Of a stretch of DNA of 64,000 bases, positions 3,646 to 19,012 are shown piece by piece. Under the pieces are notes generated by a model. It was not told the origin of the DNA. It made no database searches and saw only the letters and a program-made list of their open reading frames with translations. The number at the start of each line of letters is the position of its first letter. Positions within the stretch are counted from its first letter, which is position 1. The stretch spans positions 62,001 through 126,000 of the forward strand of contig JACQDN010000026.1 in the NCBI GenBank assembly GCA_016201105.1, in the 5' to 3' direction. Made by a program: the position numbers and the translations under genes. Origin of the DNA: Pseudomonadota bacterium (GTDB taxonomy: Bacteria; Pseudomonadota; Alphaproteobacteria; Micropepsales; Micropepsaceae).

Positions 3646-5097
3646 ATGCCGGCAGGAACCATCCTCATCGCCGACGACGACGCAGCCATCCGCACAGTTT
3701 TGAATCAAGCGCTGGGGCGCGCCGGCTACGACGTGCGCACGACGGGCACCGCGGCGGGGCTGTGGCGCTGGGTTTCCGCCGGCGATGGCAATCTGGTGAT
3801 CACCGACGTCGTGCTGCCGGACGAGAGCGGGTTCGATCTAATTCCGCGCATCAAGCGCGCACGGCCCGATCTGCCGGTGGTCGTGATGAGCGCCCAGAAC
3901 ACTATCCTCACCGCGATCACCGCGGCCGAGCGCGGCGCCTTCGACTACCTGCCCAAACCGTTCGACTTGAAGGAATTGACAGCACTGGTGCAACGCGCGC
4001 TCGCAAGTCCGCAAGCCAAACGCGAAGCACAAAGCCAACCCGAACATGGAGAAGATCGTCTTCCGCTCATCGGCCGCTCACCGGCGATGCAGGACATCTA
4101 TCGCATCATCGCGCGGCTGACGCAGGCCGATTTGACCGTGATGATCATGGGCGAGAGCGGTACCGGCAAAGAACTTGTCGCGCGCGCCCTGCACGACTAC
4201 GGCAGACGGCGCAGCGGACCTTTCGTGGCCGTGAACATGGCGGCGATCCCCAAAGAACTCGTGGAAAGCGAATTGTTCGGGCATGAGCGCGGCGCCTTCA
4301 CGGGCGCCACCAACCGGGGCGTCGGACGTTTCGAGCAAGCCGAAGGCGGCACGCTCTTTCTCGACGAAATCGGCGACATGCCGCTGGAAGCGCAGACGCG
4401 GTTGCTGCGCGTGCTGCAGCAGGGCGAATATACCACTGTGGGCGGACGCGTGCCGATCAAGACCGATGTGCGCATTATCGCCGCGACCAATCGCGATCTG
4501 CGCCAGCTCATCCAGCAAGGGCTGTTCCGCGAAGATCTCTACTACCGGCTCAATGTCGTGCCGCTTCGTCTTCCGGCGCTTCGCGAACGCGTCGAAGACA
4601 TTCCCGATCTGGTGCGCCATTTCCTGCGCAAAGCGGAAGAAGAGGGTCTGCCGCCCAAGCATCTGGACGTTGAAGCGCTCGACTTGCTCAAGCGTTATCG
4701 CTGGCCCGGCAATGTGCGCGAATTGGAAAACCTCGTGCGCCGGCTCGCGGTGCTGCATTCTGGCGAAACGATTCCCGCGTCCGCGATCGCAGCAGAGCTG
4801 AAAGAGCCGGTGAGGCCGATCGAATCTCTGGACGCAGGGGATTCCGATAGCCTCTCCGCTGCCATCGAACTCCACCTGACACGCTATTTCGCAGCCCAGG
4901 GCGACAAGCTTCCGCCAGCCGGGCTGTACGACCGCATAGTCCAGGAAGTGGAACGGCCGCTGATCTCGATCTGCCTGGGGGCAACGCGGGGCAACCAGAT
5001 CCGCGCTGCGCACCTGCTGGGTCTGAACCGCAATACCTTGAGGAAAAAGATCAGGGATCTGGGGCTCGAAGTGATCCGCGGGCTCAAGATCGACTAG
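3646..5097 (+). CDS. ntrC: Nitrogen regulation response regulator NtrC (sigma54 activator)
   Basis: Transcription activator for nitrogen-limitation genes. The receiver domain has acidic residues in IADDD (residues 8-12) and the phosphoacceptor D54 in [10 protein letters not shown]. The AAA+ domain carries Walker A GESGTGKE from residue 169 and an intact GAFTGA loop at residues 216-221, which contacts sigma54. The Fis-type helix-turn-helix is at the C-terminus ([20 protein letters not shown]). The length of 483 is normal. It starts immediately after the ntrB stop codon, so the two form one transcription unit. Confidence 0.96.
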
Positions 5098-7498: not shown

Positions 7499-8907
7499 GT
7501 AAAAACGGTTCGCTGATGGCGCCTGAAATCCTCGTCGTTGACGACGAGGAGGATATTCGCGAGTTGATCTCCGGGATTCTGCGCGACGAAGGCTTCGACA
7601 CGCGCACGGCCGGCGACAGCGATGGAGCGATCGCGGCGGTGCGCGCGAGACGGCCGCAAATCGTCGTACTCGACATCTGGCTGCAGGGCAGCAAGCTCGA
7701 CGGGATTCAGATCCTGGACATCATGAAGCGCGAGCATCCTGAAATGCCTGTGGTGATGATCAGCGGTCACGGCACAATCGAAACCGCGGTCGCCTCCATC
7801 CGCAAAGGCGCTTACGACTTCATCGAAAAGCCCTTCAAGGCGGATCGGCTCATTCATGTCGTGGGCCGCGCATTGGAATCGGCGCGGTTGAAGCGCGAAG
7901 TGGCAGAGCTTCGCTTGAAGGCCGGCGATGAAACCGAACTGGTCGGCGCTTCGTCGGCCATGTCGCAGCTGCGCCAAACCATCGACAAGGTGTCGCCGAC
8001 GGGAAGCCGCATCCTCATCACGGGGCCTTCCGGCTCGGGTAAGGAAATCGTCGCGCGCATGATTCATGCCCGTTCGCGCCGCGCCGGCAATGCTTTCGTG
8101 GCCGTCAATTGCGCGACCATGGACCCCGCCCATCTTGAAGCGGAATTGTTCGGCGAGGAAACCAACGAAGGCCCGCGCAAGATCGGCCTGCTGGAACTTG
8201 CGCATAATGGCACGCTCTATCTCGACGAAGTGGCCGACATGCCTACGGAAACGCAGGGCAAGATTCTGCGTGTGCTGGTGGAACAGACTTTCCAGCGCGT
8301 CGGCGGTTCGATCCGGGTGCAAGTGGATGTGCGCGTGATTTCGTCCACCACCCGTGATTTGCGCGCGCAGATCGCAGGCAGCGTGTTCCGCGAAGATCTC
8401 TATCATCGCCTCAACGTGGTGCCGGTGCGCGTGCCGTCATTGGCCGAACGGCGCGACGATATTCCAATGCTGGTGACGCATTTCATGAAACGCCTTTCGG
8501 CGACCTGCGGTCTTCCGGTCCGCGATGTGGGCGACGATGCGATGGCCGTGCTGCAGGCCCATAGCTGGCCCGGCAATGTGCGTCAGTTGCGCAACATCGT
8601 GGAGCGGCTGCTGATCCTGGCGACCGACGACGCCGCGCAGGCGATTTCCGCCGATCTCCTGCCCGCCGACTTGGGCGGCAACTCGCACTGGAACAACGGC
8701 GGCAAGAGCGATCTGGTGATCTCGCTGCCGTTGCGCGAAGCGCGCGAAATCTTCGAGCGCGAATATCTGGTGGCGCAGATCAACCGCTTCGGCGGCAATA
8801 TCTCGCGTACGTCGGCATTCATCGGCATGGAGCGCTCGGCGCTGCACCGCAAGCTGAAATCGCTGGGCGTGGGTCCGACCGGACGCGAACAGACGTTTAA
8901 CGCCTGA
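7495..8907 (+). CDS. ntrX: Response regulator NtrX (NtrC family, without GAFTGA)
   Basis: Partner response regulator of NtrY. The receiver domain begins ILVVDDEEDIREL, with predicted phosphoacceptor D60 in VVLDIWL. The AAA+ domain has a Walker A-like GPSGSGKE and a LYLDEVADM Walker B segment, but the stretch after ELFGEE reads TNEGPRKIG, where sigma54 activators have GAFTGA. This loss implies that it does not remodel sigma54 holoenzyme and acts in another way, as reported for several alphaproteobacterial NtrX proteins. The C-terminus has a Fis-like helix-turn-helix (NISRTSAFIGMERSALHRKLKSL). The start overlaps the ntrY stop. Confidence 0.94.
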   Translation: MSKNGSLMAPEILVVDDEEDIRELISGILRDEGFDTRTAGDSDGAIAAVRARRPQIVVLDIWLQGSKLDGIQILDIMKREHPEMPVVMISGHGTIETAVASIRKGAYDFIEKPFKADRLIHVVGRALESARLKREVAELRLKAGDETELVGASSAMSQLRQTIDKVSPTGSRILITGPSGSGKEIVARMIHARSRRAGNAFVAVNCATMDPAHLEAELFGEETNEGPRKIGLLELAHNGTLYLDEVADMPTETQGKILRVLVEQTFQRVGGSIRVQVDVRVISSTTRDLRAQIAGSVFREDLYHRLNVVPVRVPSLAERRDDIPMLVTHFMKRLSATCGLPVRDVGDDAMAVLQAHSWPGNVRQLRNIVERLLILATDDAAQAISADLLPADLGGNSHWNNGGKSDLVISLPLREAREIFEREYLVAQINRFGGNISRTSAFIGMERSALHRKLKSLGVGPTGREQTFNA

Positions 8908-15589: not shown

Positions 15590-16411
15590 TCAGGTGTTCA
15601 ATTCGATCTTCATCCCGTCAAATGCAGGCTCCACGCCGTCCGGCAATTCGAGGCGAAGTTTTTCGTAATCGAGATCGATGTGCAGGTTGGTGAGCACCGC
15701 GTGACGCGGTTTGATGCGGTCGATCCAATCCAGTGCGAGCCCGACATGAGCATGCGTGGGGTGCGGGGCGTGACGCAGCGCATCGACGATCCAGCATTCG
15801 ATACCTTCGAGCATCTTGAACGACTCGTCGGAAAGCTCGTTGACGTCGCTGGAATATGCGATCGGTCCAAAGCGGAAGCCGAGCGAGCCGAACCGTCCGT
15901 GCTCCTGCCAGAACGGCAGGACGGTGATGACACCACCCGCGCCCTTGATCTCGAACGCCCTGCCCGGCGCGATCTCGTGGGACGTCATGATCGGTGGATA
16001 TTCGCTGTCTGGCGGCGTCGTGAAGATGTAGCCGAAGCGATCGTGCAACCCGTCGAGCGTCTTGCGGTCGCTATACAGCGGAATGCGCGCGCGCGCCGCG
16101 TAAGCGACGGAGCGGATGTCGTCGAGGCCGTGGGTCTGGTCGGCGTGATTGTGGGTGATGAGAACGGCGTCGAGACGTCCGCAGCGCGCGTCCAAGAGCT
16201 GCTCGCGCATATCGGGCGAGGTATCGACTAGCACCGCCGTCTCGCCGCCAAGCGATTTGCGCCGTACGAGAATCGAACAGCGGCGGCGGCGGTTCTTGGG
16301 ATTGGCGGAATCGCAGGCACCCCAATCGCCGGCGCCGTCGGGGCCGCCGATGCGCGGCACGCCGGTGGACGATCCCGAACCCAGAATCGTGACTTGCAGA
16401 ACGTCGGTCAT
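15590..16411 (-). CDS. MBL-fold metal-dependent hydrolase (PhnP-like)
   Basis: A 273-residue metallo-beta-lactamase-fold hydrolase of the PhnP/RNase Z-like phosphodiesterase type. Visible motifs are GSGSSTGVPRIG at the N-terminus, the zinc ligand motif THNHADQTHGLDD, and the later GLALDWI and TNLHIDLDY segments with ligand histidines. Four-base overlap (ATGA) with tatD upstream shows co-expression; tatD and this hydrolase are regular neighbours in alphaproteobacteria. The physiological substrate is not known. Confidence 0.9.
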   Translation of the reverse strand: MTDVLQVTILGSGSSTGVPRIGGPDGAGDWGACDSANPKNRRRRCSILVRRKSLGGETAVLVDTSPDMREQLLDARCGRLDAVLITHNHADQTHGLDDIRSVAYAARARIPLYSDRKTLDGLHDRFGYIFTTPPDSEYPPIMTSHEIAPGRAFEIKGAGGVITVLPFWQEHGRFGSLGFRFGPIAYSSDVNELSDESFKMLEGIECWIVDALRHAPHPTHAHVGLALDWIDRIKPRHAVLTNLHIDLDYEKLRLELPDGVEPAFDGMKIELNT

Positions 16412-17190
16412 TGCGGACGTTTGGCTTTGGTGAAGAGACGAAAGAAATTGTCAGTGGTCGCCTGTGCCAGTTCGTCTTGCGTGACGCCTTTGAGGCCCGC
16501 AAGCATCGCTGCGGTGTGGGCGACAAAGGCCGGCTCGTTGCGTTTGCCGCGATGAGGCATGGGCGCCAGATACGGAGCGTCGGTCTCCACCAGAAGCCTG
16601 TCTAACGGCACGTCCTTGATCACCGCGCGCAATTTGTCGGATTTCTTGAAAGTGGCGATGCCGGAGACGGAAATGCAGAAGTCCAGCGCGAGGGCAGCGT
16701 CCGCCAAGCGCTTGGTGCCGGTGAAGCAATGGATGAGGCCGGGGAAGGCGCCCTTCCCCATTTCGTCCTCGAGAATCGCGATCGTGTCTTCGTCGGCGTC
16801 GCGCGTATGCACGATCAACGGCAATCCGGTTTCGCGCGCTGCCGCGATATGGACACGGAAGTTCTTGGCCTGCAGATCGCGCGGACTGTGCTCATAATAG
16901 AAATCAAGGCCGGTCTCGCCGATGCCGACGACTTTGGGATGTTTGGCGCGCTCCAGCAGCGGGGTTGCATCTTCCAGGAGTTCGACTTCGGCCTCGTGCG
17001 GATGGATTCCGACCGAACACCACACTTGCGCGAAACGCTCGGCGATGGCGCGGGCATTGTCGAAGTTTTTCAGTGTCGTGCCGATGGTGACGGCGGCCTT
17101 GACGCCCGCATCGTTCGCACGCGCGACCACCGCGTCCAGCTCGGGCGCGAATTCCGGAAAATCGAGGTGACAGTGGCTGTCGACGAGCAT
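16408..17190 (-). CDS. tatD: TatD-family metal-dependent deoxyribonuclease
   Basis: A TIM-barrel metal-dependent hydrolase of the TatD family (260 residues), with 3'-5' exonuclease activity on DNA in studied members. The metal-binding start DSHCHLDF is at residues 4-11; GIHPHEAE, GETGLDFYYEHSP, LIVHTRDADEDT, HCFTG and ETDAPYLAP are all in the expected order. It is the upstream gene of the pair with the MBL hydrolase. In many alphaproteobacteria metG precedes it; here a repeat-bounded GIY-YIG gene lies upstream instead. Confidence 0.95.
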   Translation of the reverse strand: MLVDSHCHLDFPEFAPELDAVVARANDAGVKAAVTIGTTLKNFDNARAIAERFAQVWCSVGIHPHEAEVELLEDATPLLERAKHPKVVGIGETGLDFYYEHSPRDLQAKNFRVHIAAARETGLPLIVHTRDADEDTIAILEDEMGKGAFPGLIHCFTGTKRLADAALALDFCISVSGIATFKKSDKLRAVIKDVPLDRLLVETDAPYLAPMPHRGKRNEPAFVAHTAAMLAGLKGVTQDELAQATTDNFFRLFTKAKRPQ

Positions 17191-17252
17191 GGACGTTCGT
17201 TAGCGCGGGCGGAGCGAGATGGCAAATGGGAGGGTTGAGTACCCCGCAACCG

Positions 17253-17403
17253 AAATTCGTCATCCCGGTCGAACATTGCGAAGCAATGTGAGTGCCGGGA
17301 CCCATACGCACGATGCTGAAGATGTTTTCGCGACTGTTCGCCACCGCGGGTATGGGTCCCGGCACGCGCACCCTATCGGGCGCTTGGCCGGGATGACGAA
17401 TTT
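17253..17403 (+). repeat. 150-bp palindromic repeat, copy 1
   Basis: A 151-bp element with perfect 16-bp terminal inverted repeats, AAATTCGTCATCCCGG at 17253-17268 and its complement at 17388-17403. It also has an inner perfect 15-bp inverted pair, GTGCCGGGACCCATA at 17292-17306 and its complement at 17351-17365. A small hairpin, ACATTGC-GAA-GCAATGT, lies between the left arms. It encodes nothing. It resembles a REPIN or MITE. A second copy in inverted orientation is at 17816-17964. Confidence 0.9.
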
Positions 17404-17503
17404 GTATGCGATTGTATCGGGCAGAACGAACTGAGGGAAAATCTTACTAATTGAGCATATTGCCACGCTGGATGATATTCGGCGCTTCCACGATGCTCCG
17501 CCC

Positions 17504-17815
17504 ATGGTGTCGCGAGATCAATTCAATGTCTTTATTGCTGTCTACATGATGGCGAGCCGCAGATACGGGACGATCTATACCGGCGTCACCAGTCAACTTC
17601 CAAAGCGCGCCTGCGAACATCGTGAAGGTCTGATCCCCGGGTTTACGAAAAAGCACCGCGTCAATCGTCTGGTCTGGTTTGAGCGCCATGAGAGCATGAC
17701 GGTCGCCATTCGGCGTGAGAAAACGATCAAGCGGTATAGGCGGGAATGGAAGTACAATCTGATCGAACGGGAGAACCCTTATTGGATCGATCTCTATCCA
17801 TATCTTTCATACTAG
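17504..17815 (+). CDS. GIY-YIG nuclease-domain protein between inverted repeats
   Basis: A 103-residue single-domain GIY-YIG endonuclease-like protein. The two core strands read VYMMAS and GTIYTGVTS. They are followed by KRACEHREG with the expected arginine, the GFTKKH turn, LVWFE, and the helix AIRREKTIKRYRREW with the candidate catalytic glutamate, then the family C-terminal NPYWIDLY. This is the small group related to UvrC N-domain and YhbQ, often called a GIY-YIG nuclease of unknown role. The ATG at 17504 keeps the first strand; ATGs at 17546 and 17549 would cut it. It lies exactly between two inverted copies of one repeat, and its stop ends at the base before the right copy. Confidence 0.85.
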   Translation: MVSRDQFNVFIAVYMMASRRYGTIYTGVTSQLPKRACEHREGLIPGFTKKHRVNRLVWFERHESMTVAIRREKTIKRYRREWKYNLIERENPYWIDLYPYLSY

Positions 17816-17964
17816 AACCGTCATCCCGGCCAAGCGCCCGCAGGGTGCACGTGCCGGGACCCATAAGCGCGGTAGTCGAACGGTCCCGCGCAAACATCTT
17901 CAGCATCGTGTGTGTGGGTCCCGGTACTTATATTGCTTCGCAATGCTCGGCCGGGATGACGGTT
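17816..17964 (-). repeat. 150-bp palindromic repeat, copy 2 (inverted)
   Basis: A 149-bp copy of the repeat at 17253-17403, in inverted orientation. Terminal inverted repeats are perfect over 16 bp (AACCGTCATCCCGGCC at 17816-17831 with its complement at 17949-17964). The inner GTGCCGGGACCCATA arm is conserved, its partner less so. By eye most positions match copy 1 once reversed, including the asymmetrical centre CGATGCTGAAGATGTTT. It starts one base after the GIY-YIG stop and overlaps the holB stop codon by two bases. Confidence 0.9.
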
Positions 17965-19012
17965 AGAGTGGTGAATTCCGCGCCGTTCTTGAAAGCGATC
18001 GCGCGCTGCTGAGCACAGTTTGTTTTGGCTCCAGGTGCAACGCCGAGGCCCGAGAAAAATTGCGAATGAGTTGTTCGCGCAGTTCGATCCAGCGCTGGAC
18101 GTTTCCGGTTTCGGCTCTGGTGCGGATGCGAGCGCCCAAAGCCTGCACGAAGAACTCGCCGAATTTCTCCAGCCCGTCGCCCATGCGTCCGGTTTTTTCG
18201 GCGATCGCAAAGATGGCTGCGAAATCCGGATTGGCGGCACCGTCGATCAGGCGCTCCGCCGCTTCGGCGAGTTCGAGGCCGTCGTCGCCGGAGAGCTGCA
18301 GCGCCAGCCCCAATGAGCCGCCCGCGAGCTTCGCCAGCGATGCGCGTTTGGGTTGGGGAAGATCGGGCAGATGCTTGGCAAGTTCGGCCTGCAGGTCGCA
18401 GAGGGGCAGCGGCCTCAACGCGAGACGCTGGCAGCGCGAACGAATGGTCGGCAGCAATCGTCCCGGCGCATTGGCGAGCAGCATCAACATGGCGCGTGGT
18501 GGCGGTTCTTCCAGCGCCTTGAGCAGCGCGTTGGCGGCGGCATCGTTCATGTCGTCCGCGGTGTCGACGATGGCGATACGCCAGCCGCCGGCGCCCGACG
18601 TCATGCCGAAGAAACCGGCAAGACGGCGAATCTCGTCGACGCCCAGCACCGTCATCAACTTGCCGGTGTTGGGATTGGGGCTGCGTTTCAGAACGAGCAA
18701 TCCGGGATGCGCGCCTGCGATCACTTGCGCCGATACCGCGTCGTTTTGAGCGACCGCCAAATCTTCAGGACCCTGATCGGTGGCGCCGAAGCGCAAGAGG
18801 TACCGCGCGATGCGGTAGGCGAGCGTCGCCTTGCCGATCCCCGGCGCCCCCGAGATCAGCCAGGCTTGCGGCGGGCGGCCCGAGCGGACGGCGCGCGAGA
18901 CAATGGCAAGCGCCGCGCCCTGCCCCGCAAAATGCATGGTCTCGCGCGGATGGGGAAAGCCTTCCAGCCGGTCGGGCTCCTCGACCTCTTCGGGTTTCGT
19001 GCGCCGGGCCAT
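17963..19012 (-). CDS. holB: DNA polymerase III subunit delta'
   Basis: Clamp-loader subunit delta' of the replicative polymerase. At 349 residues it has a P-loop-like GAPGIGKATLAYRIA, IVDTADDMNDAAANALLKALEEPP (the segment used in clamp-loader AAA+ proteins) and the sensor-like TIRSRCQRL. Cysteines for the zinc module of the E. coli protein are absent. It is part of the rlpA-dacC-tmk-holB operon, with a three-base gap to tmk. The TAA stop at 17965-17963 falls at the edge of repeat copy 2, so the C-terminal residues may have been altered by that insertion. Confidence 0.93.
   Translation of the reverse strand: MARRTKPEEVEEPDRLEGFPHPRETMHFAGQGAALAIVSRAVRSGRPPQAWLISGAPGIGKATLAYRIARYLLRFGATDQGPEDLAVAQNDAVSAQVIAGAHPGLLVLKRSPNPNTGKLMTVLGVDEIRRLAGFFGMTSGAGGWRIAIVDTADDMNDAAANALLKALEEPPPRAMLMLLANAPGRLLPTIRSRCQRLALRPLPLCDLQAELAKHLPDLPQPKRASLAKLAGGSLGLALQLSGDDGLELAEAAERLIDGAANPDFAAIFAIAEKTGRMGDGLEKFGEFFVQALGARIRTRAETGNVQRWIELREQLIRNFSRASALHLEPKQTVLSSARSLSRTARNSPL

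Follow-up and report, generated by a model that had tools for sequence, protein, structure and literature searches.

A GIY-YIG nuclease gene between CGTC-tagged palindromic dimers in a Micropepsaceae genome, and the tie of its subfamily to such repeats

A 64,000-nucleotide stretch of a Micropepsaceae genome (GenBank assembly GCA_016201105.1, contig JACQDN010000026.1, positions 62,001 to 126,000; hereafter the window) carries a small GIY-YIG nuclease gene enclosed by two inverted palindromic repeats of one family. The explanation favoured here, with a probability of roughly 70%, is a REP-nuclease unit, in which a GIY-YIG gene travels with, and probably recognises, palindromes tagged with CGTC, in the manner of RAYT/REPIN systems but with a GIY-YIG enzyme (REP, repetitive extragenic palindrome; RAYT, REP-associated tyrosine transposase; REPIN, REP doublet forming a hairpin). 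The link between GIY-YIG genes and repeats is more general than one locus shows, and at particular sites the block of repeat, gene and repeat is found in some genomes and missing from others. The unit in the window comprises the following features.

17504-17815, plus strand: GIY-YIG nuclease gene of the REP-associated subfamily (class A below), 103 amino acids, PF01541 match at E 1.2e-11
17258-17398 (141 bp): left repeat, a head-out inverted dimer of a CGTC-tagged REP-like unit, identified by sequence, inverted match and hairpin
17819-17961 (143 bp): right repeat, a second copy of the inverted dimer of the left repeat, identified by sequence, inverted match and hairpin
17258-17961 (704 bp): whole unit, repeat-gene-repeat, a very probable insertion between tatD and holB

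Each repeat starts with CGTC and stops with GACG, at 17258-17261 and 17395-17398 on the left and at 17819-17822 and 17958-17961 on the right. The inverted arms 17258-17332 and 17887-17961 are 75 nt long and 89% complementary, and they form the sole inverted pair of at least 40 nt detected in the window (exact seed 14). A preliminary description of this locus, made from the letters of the DNA, had recognised a GIY-YIG gene between two palindromic repeats of the same family, and the PF01541 match and these arms bear it out. Its "150-bp repeats" are indeed two copies, of 141 and 143 bp, but each is a head-out inverted dimer of a shorter unit; the opposite orientation it reported holds by sequence similarity, the left repeat matching the right copy on the opposite strand at 88% (blast), although each copy is nearly symmetric. 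It had also placed the right copy correctly at the gene end, as the outermost palindromic bases start directly after the TAG stop codon (17813-17815), and the outer end of the same repeat adjoins the holB stop codon (17963-17965).

In one half-unit, CGTC is followed by a short stem (ATCCCGG / CCGGGA) whose enlarged loop contains a small hairpin, and then by an ACCCATA tail. The dimer runs CGTC...ACCCATA, a spacer of about 45 nt, and the mirror image TATGGGT...GACG. Single-strand DNA folding of 17253-17404 gave -55.3 kcal/mol (z -9.1) and of 17815-17966 gave -47.3 kcal/mol (z -6.4), with 0 of 200 shuffles equally stable in either case. The palindromes of the dimers reach 3-5 bases past CGTC, with bases that differ by copy (AAATT..AATTT at 17253-17403, AACC..GGTT at 17816-17964); such an extension is not clear in other genomic dimers and may be due to chance. 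A scan of the window for GTCAT-tagged hairpins returned five, of which two lie at the unit and are its inner halves, the outer halves failing the stem rule, and three (5972, 9551, 11434) lack the REP tail. The source genome contains 24 blast matches of the repeat at 15 sites, two belonging to this unit and 13 lying elsewhere, many of them dimers. An RNA element was considered and rejected, as Rfam returned no match in 17000-18300 up to E 0.1, and one tRNA elsewhere in the window at its gathering thresholds.

The nuclease belongs to a distinct subfamily. A model seeded on the window protein separated 84 GIY-YIG genes from 84 sources (80 fetched regions, the window and three source-genome loci) into class A, with 59 genes at 116-141 bits, and class B, with 25 genes below 90 bits that are UPF0213/YhbQ-like by eye. 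The 80 regions were hand-picked rather than random, from rows of the same genus plus two source-genome matches, favouring better assemblies. The source genome has six PF01541 matches, three of class A (the window gene and two paralogues, L168 and L169), two of class B, and a sixth inside a 649-codon frame, presumably UvrC. Among the residues invariant in 61 class A sequences are Y14, G22, T23, Y25, G27, R35, H39, E72 and N91, a pattern that fits a working GIY-YIG site. Class A matches at E<=1e-20 occur patchily, in 122 of 385 genomes of the taxonomic class, one genome (G190) holding as many as 10 copies.

The AlphaFold2 model of the window protein has a mean pLDDT (predicted local distance difference test) of 92.6. 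GIY-YIG proteins head both the Foldseek and the VIA lists (UPF0213, Slx1, HIGLE, I-TevI, UvrC); UPF0213 and Slx1 are the nearest solved structures, with modest scores (Foldseek E >0.001, Z <8), and because of these scores no function was read from the fold. PDB sequence matches are weak (E 0.04-0.06). In NCBIfam the window protein has no match and a relative from the genus matches only below the cut-off; in PHROGs the window protein likewise has no match, and the genus relative has only weak homing-endonuclease-like matches. A role as a defence gene was considered and rejected, with no PADLOC match at E 0.01. Phage origin was also rejected, as the genus relative used as query matched only two phage records, both of one phage (RHph_Y65), at 35% identity. 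The nuclease gene of Planktothrix agardhii plasmid p1 (L286), 61% identical to a class A protein, lies between genes annotated as a type IIL restriction enzyme and drmA of DISARM. The only recognisable gene in the 704-bp unit is the GIY-YIG one, with other short frames left out of the search, in agreement with the earlier statement that no transposase is present.

The tie between class A genes and repeats shows in their proximity across genomes. Under a strict definition, the hairpin stem starts with AT right after GTC and lies within 150 bp of either gene end; a relaxed definition, at the same distance, also admits TGTC, other first stem bases and a CC tail. In the genus, strict repeats accompany 37 of the 59 class A genes on either side and 23 on both, compared with 1 and 0 of the 25 class B genes and with 126 and 1 of 2950 random positions in the same loci. 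Relaxed counts are 37 and 30 of 59 for class A, one of 25 for class B, and 132 and 1 of 2950 for random positions. A wider set comprised the best 80 of 586 confirmed loci (short peptide pattern), many of them draft or metagenome assemblies in which rarer phyla are possibly binning errors, and 30 further loci with the top-scoring class A matches of the taxonomic class, two matches of 43 and 89 bits being dropped. Strict repeats flank 90 of 109 wide loci on either side and 55 on both (random, 182 and 5 of 5300), and relaxed repeats 96 and 62 of 106 (random, 184 and 8 of 5250). Three duplicates (L255, L264, L265) are counted in the test with 109 loci, were dropped from that with 106 and from the orientation count below, and are absent from the 78 two-sided loci used for stem comparison. 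The expectation that repeats would flank GIY-YIG homologues at many loci is thus confirmed far above random positions and class B.

This proximity is specific to the tag. Among the 59 class A genes, GTCAT hairpins were found at 37, GACAT at one, and GTGAT, CTCAT and GTCTA at none, and GTC followed by C or G is unenriched (9/59 versus 609/2950). A motif-free test for inverted matches between the 250 bp on either side of the gene (score >=21) was positive for 36 of 59 class A and 2 of 25 class B genes, for 2 of 60 random placements and for 11 of 397 in a larger control. A class B exception, L157 in G038, has a long inverted match of different sequence on both sides (score 40).

Named loci scanned include Caulobacter, Brevundimonas, Sphingomonas, Bradyrhizobium, Dyella, Rhodanobacter, Lysobacter, Massilia and Thiobacillus, together with Sulfurovum, a Nitrospiraceae bin and bins of candidate phyla, not all of them with a repeat. 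Repeats are present in Sulfurovum (L231), Nitrospiraceae (L243), Bipolaricaulota (L242) and Moraniibacteriota (L181) bins, which may be contaminated. The tie of class A to CGTC repeats therefore holds across Proteobacteria and, in a small number of draft genomes, outside them as well. The source-genome paralogue L169 (contig C75; 1080-1139, 1480-1544) has TGTC-tagged repeats on both sides, TGTCACCCCC...GGGGGCCCAG, with a weak stem and a long loop, and because the automatic search missed weak-stem repeats of this kind, the linkage rates are probably too low. At the other paralogue, L168 (contig C16; 4920-4970, 5310-5345), the right repeat is in frame and encodes the C-terminus of the protein. 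The protein of L091 ends in residues near-identical to those of L168. The strict scan found no GTCAT-tagged hairpin near the gene in five of seven plasmid records fetched (Sinorhizobium meliloti, Rhizobium tumorigenes, Sphingobium TYG46, Novosphingobium aromaticivorans pNL2 and Planktothrix); TYG46 and pNL2, read by eye, do carry CGTC repeats, with stems beginning AC or GC. In the plasmid of Rhizobium sp. CIAT894 (L283, 2810-3380), a small array of inverted CGTC repeats with a period of 271 bp lies downstream of the nuclease gene, at offsets from the match of 310, 581 and 852 on one strand and 479 and 750 on the other.

Gene and repeat are almost certainly functionally paired. Left and right stems are identical at 50 of the 78 two-sided loci, against a shuffle maximum of 13. 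Across genomes of the genus, protein distance correlates with repeat distance, the latter resting on six stem bases (Mantel rho 0.48 for 37 genes, against at most 0.39 in 2000 permutations). A gene and its nearest relative in another genome have equal repeats in 17 of 37 cases; for pairs of paralogues within one genome the figure is 3 of 21. Repeat type thus tracks nuclease clade and not simply the host.

The copy number of one clade's repeat, GTCATGGCCCGCNANNGCGGGCCACCCAG, is higher where its nuclease clade is present. It ranges from 0 to 222 across the 69 genus genomes (reversed control, 0), with a median of 14 in the 23 genomes with the cognate nuclease clade and 0 in the 46 without (p=1.5e-6); compared with the 25 genomes having other class A genes only, p=7.9e-5. 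Clade membership was set at >=68% identity, a cut-off chosen after viewing the list, and a 45-amino-acid fragment with a stop in G038 (67%) was omitted; cut-offs of 60-75% identity give copy-number p values from 5.8e-7 to 1.6e-3.

The layout of this repeat relates the gene to the dimer. In the 108 listed places in 10 genomes from which pairs were read, which are not a full count (one listed place each in G100, G003 and G000 and 39 in G016 were left out), 24 neighbouring opposite-strand pairs lie within 600 bp, and in all 24 the CGTC ends point outward and the tails inward; two further neighbours share a strand. Of the 24 opposite-strand pairs, 20 are gene-free and span 98-204 bp, and the other four span 369-436 bp, each enclosing a nuclease match; thus the gene takes the place of the spacer in an ordinary dimer. 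GTCAT repeats flank 81 of 165 class A genes on both sides at distances of up to 200 bp; 57 of the 81 have tails toward the gene, 15 have heads toward the gene, and 8 and 1 are mixed. The window, with its gene between two whole dimers, displays the rarer, heads-facing layout, the usual one being the gene in the spacer of one dimer.

The position of the unit was assessed against its neighbours, which are listed below. Both names, tatD and holB (DNA polymerase III delta prime), are presumptive.

16408-17190, minus strand: left neighbour and site marker, a TatD-type DNase gene (open reading frame; homologues beside holB in 29 loci)
17963-19012, minus strand: right neighbour, a holB-type gene (open reading frame; matches in genus genomes)

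Of the 69 genus genomes, 60 match the holB-type gene at E<=1e-90 and 68 at E<=0.001, some of the latter to a paralogue only. Among the 30 best-scoring holB loci of the genus, one is the window's own, and in the 29 relatives holB runs straight into tatD without a GIY-YIG match, the distance from the end of holB homology to the tatD start being 26-79 nt versus 799 nt in the window. The window unit is, on this comparison, very probably an insertion. HolB of these relatives is about 60-68% identical, too distant for exact junctions or target duplication at the window site; the last codons of the window holB differ from those of relatives at the insertion edge, and about 67 unassigned bp separate the left repeat from tatD. 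The window also holds a 104-nt direct repeat of 71% identity (4523-4626 and 8384-8487), the only direct pair of at least 40 nt detected.

Seven Sphingobium plasmids carry the nuclease gene. A closer comparison is provided by three of these and four plasmids without it, all with a common junction from fnrL to a response-regulator gene, whose flanks are 90-99% identical among the six other than TYG65. TomMM7A and TomMM15 carry CGTCACCCCGGG-CTTGA-CCCGGGGTCCCGCT, the gene, and then the reverse of that repeat; TomTYG46 is similar with a changed right repeat. At the same place TomTYG64 has only CGTCACCCCGGG-TCAAG-CCCGGGGTGACG, made up of the outer halves of the two repeats, TomTYG74 is as TomTYG64 with changes, and TomTYG72 and TomTYG65 have neither block nor palindrome. 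The block borders coincide with CGTC tags, and the 8-bp stem half occurs twice, which could be read as a target-site duplication. This is a near-exact empty site, where the block either entered a palindrome or left one via recombination between stem copies. Empty sites, anticipated in the preliminary description, therefore exist both at holB-tatD (29/29 relatives) and in Sphingobium. Comparison of Novosphingobium pNL2 with ES2-1 and THN1 showed a rearranged region with no clean junction, and for the Rhizobium tumorigenes and CIAT894 plasmids no empty site with both flanks highly identical was found among the best 40 of 288 and 145 records.

The earlier idea of a composite, RAYT-like mobile unit is supported in its anatomy, linkage and empty sites, while its further proposal that the nuclease acts on and spreads the repeats remains conditional. 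Whether the nuclease itself drives the spread is judged an even call from these sequence comparisons. The protein would nick the repeat once it becomes single-stranded or forms an extruded hairpin, and repair, replication restart or strand annealing at the nick would copy the unit or a gene-free dimer elsewhere; gene-free dimers would then be non-autonomous derivatives of the gene-in-spacer unit. A broader proposal, held tentatively and at slightly less than even odds, is that CGTC-tagged REPs, the second major REP superfamily, serve as terminal repeats for mobile elements that lack a transposase and are driven by their cognate GIY-YIG nuclease, with repeat-gene-repeat as the autonomous form and gene-free dimers, including the NIMEs (Neisseria intergenic mosaic elements) and dRS3 pairs of Neisseria, as miniature derivatives, spread by nuclease-triggered hairpin repair or homing and not by strand transfer.

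A homing variant, with spread targeted to CGTC palindromes already in place that the nuclease cuts and into which the entire block is copied, is rather unlikely. In its favour, the gene-free site of TomTYG74 and TomTYG64 holds one symmetric palindrome (exact in TYG64, altered in TYG74) that combines the left repeat's left half with the right repeat's right half, and the fold matches include the I-TevI catalytic domain (Z 5.8). The Sphingobium palindrome could, however, be a deletion scar between direct stem copies, and the window-site gap of 26-79 nt in the 29 distant relatives holds no CGTC palindrome by eye.

About equally doubtful is a housekeeping or domesticated single-strand nuclease with a host role, similar to the Neisseria GIY-YIG family Ssn, for which the repeats are dispersed recognition sites (the role being, for instance, to restrict or direct the entry of single-stranded DNA or to remove hairpins), adjacent repeats being kept for autoregulation and spread by other means. 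It agrees with the position of the Neisseria gonorrhoeae homologue among dRS3 repeats, with work on Ssn in Neisseria in which a repeat-specific nuclease is reported to modulate transformation, and with a fold nearest to structure-specific nucleases such as Slx1, at modest scores (E >0.001, Z <8). Patchy presence (122/385 genomes), up to 10 copies per genome, empty sites and two-sided repeats are instead features of a mobile unit.

Highly improbable is a passenger gene merely captured between copies of repeats that a RAYT/IS200-type or insertion sequence (IS) transposase moves. The simple inverted repeats do look like terminal repeats, an IS4 transposase gene adjoins one Rhizobium unit, and the third and eighth repeat-richest genomes, G016 and G008, have one match each to Y1 (RAYT-type) transposases. 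Y1 transposases are present in 18 of 69 genus genomes and do not predict repeat number (p=0.80), the two repeat-richest genomes (222 and 126 copies) lack them, and no such hairpin lies within about 1.5 kb at the five Y1 loci inspected out of 33 listed matches. In addition, one subfamily is flanked at 96 of 106 loci in Proteobacteria and a few drafts of other phyla, which repeated capture would not give, and the survey of CGTC REPs (PMC3733652) describes tyrosine transposase genes as never CGTC-flanked and other transposase associations as few and fortuitous. That a common repeat and a common small gene lie together by chance is a negligible possibility, since, although the exact CGTCATCCCGG motif lies within the locus of only one of the six source-genome GIY-YIG genes, the other two class A genes there carry inverted repeats of other types, the remaining three are not class A, and the random-position and class B controls refute it.

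Several points weigh against the REP-nuclease unit as an explanation. The relaxed search leaves 22 of 59 genus genes and 10 of 106 in the wide set without a nearby repeat, and long inverted matches surround two of the 25 class B genes (scores 28 and 40). Four of the 23 clade genomes lack the exact repeat, some clade-free genomes have up to 13 copies, and repeat copies far exceed nuclease genes, so most cannot adjoin one. The Mantel and copy-number statistics ignore shared ancestry, and the counts cover a single repeat type. Not every genome follows the dimer layout, as none of the 39 listed copies in G016 pair within 600 bp (by eye). The Sphingobium difference could be gene loss and not gain. 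GIY-YIG enzymes act by hydrolysing DNA and are not known to join strands, and transposition would consequently need host repair. The action of the nuclease on the repeat, whether cutting, binding or movement, is what we infer from sequence patterns.

CGTC REPs are found in many Proteobacteria, and the 2013 survey left their mover open (PMC3733652). The present data name a candidate enzyme, tie its clades to particular repeats and document units that some genomes have and others lack at a fixed site, which opens the question to direct tests. Should the nuclease prove to drive the spread, this would be a mobile element based on a hydrolytic nuclease without a transposase, convergent with RAYT/REPIN, and the diverse nuclease-repeat pairs would offer many sequence-specific hairpin or single-strand cutters to study.

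Among known systems, the repeats come closest to CGTC REPs. According to Di Nocera et al. 2013, these have an unpaired CGTC end tag (TGTC or CCTC too), an 8-9 bp stem beginning A-T, a loop of 4-5 nt, with other lengths in some families, and a CCA tail; they form inverted dimers with spacers mostly of 20-100 bp, occur in many copies, predominantly in alpha-Proteobacteria, and "apparently lack a dedicated transposase" (PMC3733652). The window units match in tag, ACCCATA tails, inverted dimers and multiple copies. Their stem begins AT with about 6-7 paired bases and an A.C mismatch; the inner units reach 7 of 8 and the outer units fail. They differ in the loop, about 25 nt with an inner hairpin versus 4-5 nt, and because that feature fails they are filed as CGTC-REP-like. 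The flanking repeats of relatives, chosen by a rule of 7 of 8 stem bases, include many with loops of 4-5 nt (by eye). Whereas the class was described without a dedicated transposase, in passages that mention transposase genes only, here a GIY-YIG subfamily is tied to such repeats.

A second comparison leads to Neisseria. The N. gonorrhoeae homologue is 51% identical to the window protein over 87 amino acids (pair E 1e-30), and a repeat of dRS3/CGTC-1 type lies 2 nt after the stop of its gene; dRS3 is equated with CGTC-1 in the 2013 survey (PMC3733652). NIMEs, as described in PMC10745880, are RS elements flanked by dRS3 repeats, with nearly 700 dRS3 copies in meningococcus; a spacer flanked by CGTC-1 repeats is comparable to the gene-free dimer, but in another genus and, in the passage that describes them, with no mention of a nuclease. 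Two 2.17-Mb N. gonorrhoeae records listed as plasmids in PLSDB (NZ_CP119142.1, NZ_CP119140.1) are, judged by size, probably chromosomes. A 2025 Nature Communications report reportedly describes Ssn as a Neisseria GIY-YIG family that is site-specific for single-stranded repeats and acts on transformation, and the N. gonorrhoeae homologue locus is presumably the published Ssn gene. On that definition, the window gene belongs to the subfamily of the N. gonorrhoeae homologue and lies beside a repeat that is its putative target; the role reported for Ssn is in natural transformation, whereas the inserted block, the two layouts and the copy-number link come from the present analysis. The earlier label of an "undescribed" system is hence doubtful, CGTC REPs having been described (PMC3733652). 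The novelty of the pairing is lowered by an enzyme family that has probably already been described, as Ssn, and the evidence for the unit is unaffected. A title and abstract search, with partial coverage of subscription literature, found nothing linking GIY-YIG with REP, RAYT or dRS3.

GIY-YIG homing endonucleases, UvrC, Slx1 and UPF0213 share the domain and fold, with weak sequence similarity. The UPF0213/YhbQ-like class B genes of the same genomes have a repeat in only 1 of 25 cases, unlike class A, and a homing endonuclease gene interrupting its own site is compatible with Sphingobium but is not seen at the window site. The unit has terminal inverted repeats, as in an insertion sequence or composite transposon, but its one recognisable gene is GIY-YIG and not a DDE, HUH, serine or tyrosine recombinase. 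A parallel in organisation is RAYT/REPIN, which is alike in its small nuclease gene flanked by inverted REPs, dispersed gene-free dimers and cognate pairing. RAYT/REPIN systems use GTAG REPs and an HUH Y1 transposase; the window has a GIY-YIG fold and a CGTC tag instead, and repeat number is unrelated to Y1 presence.

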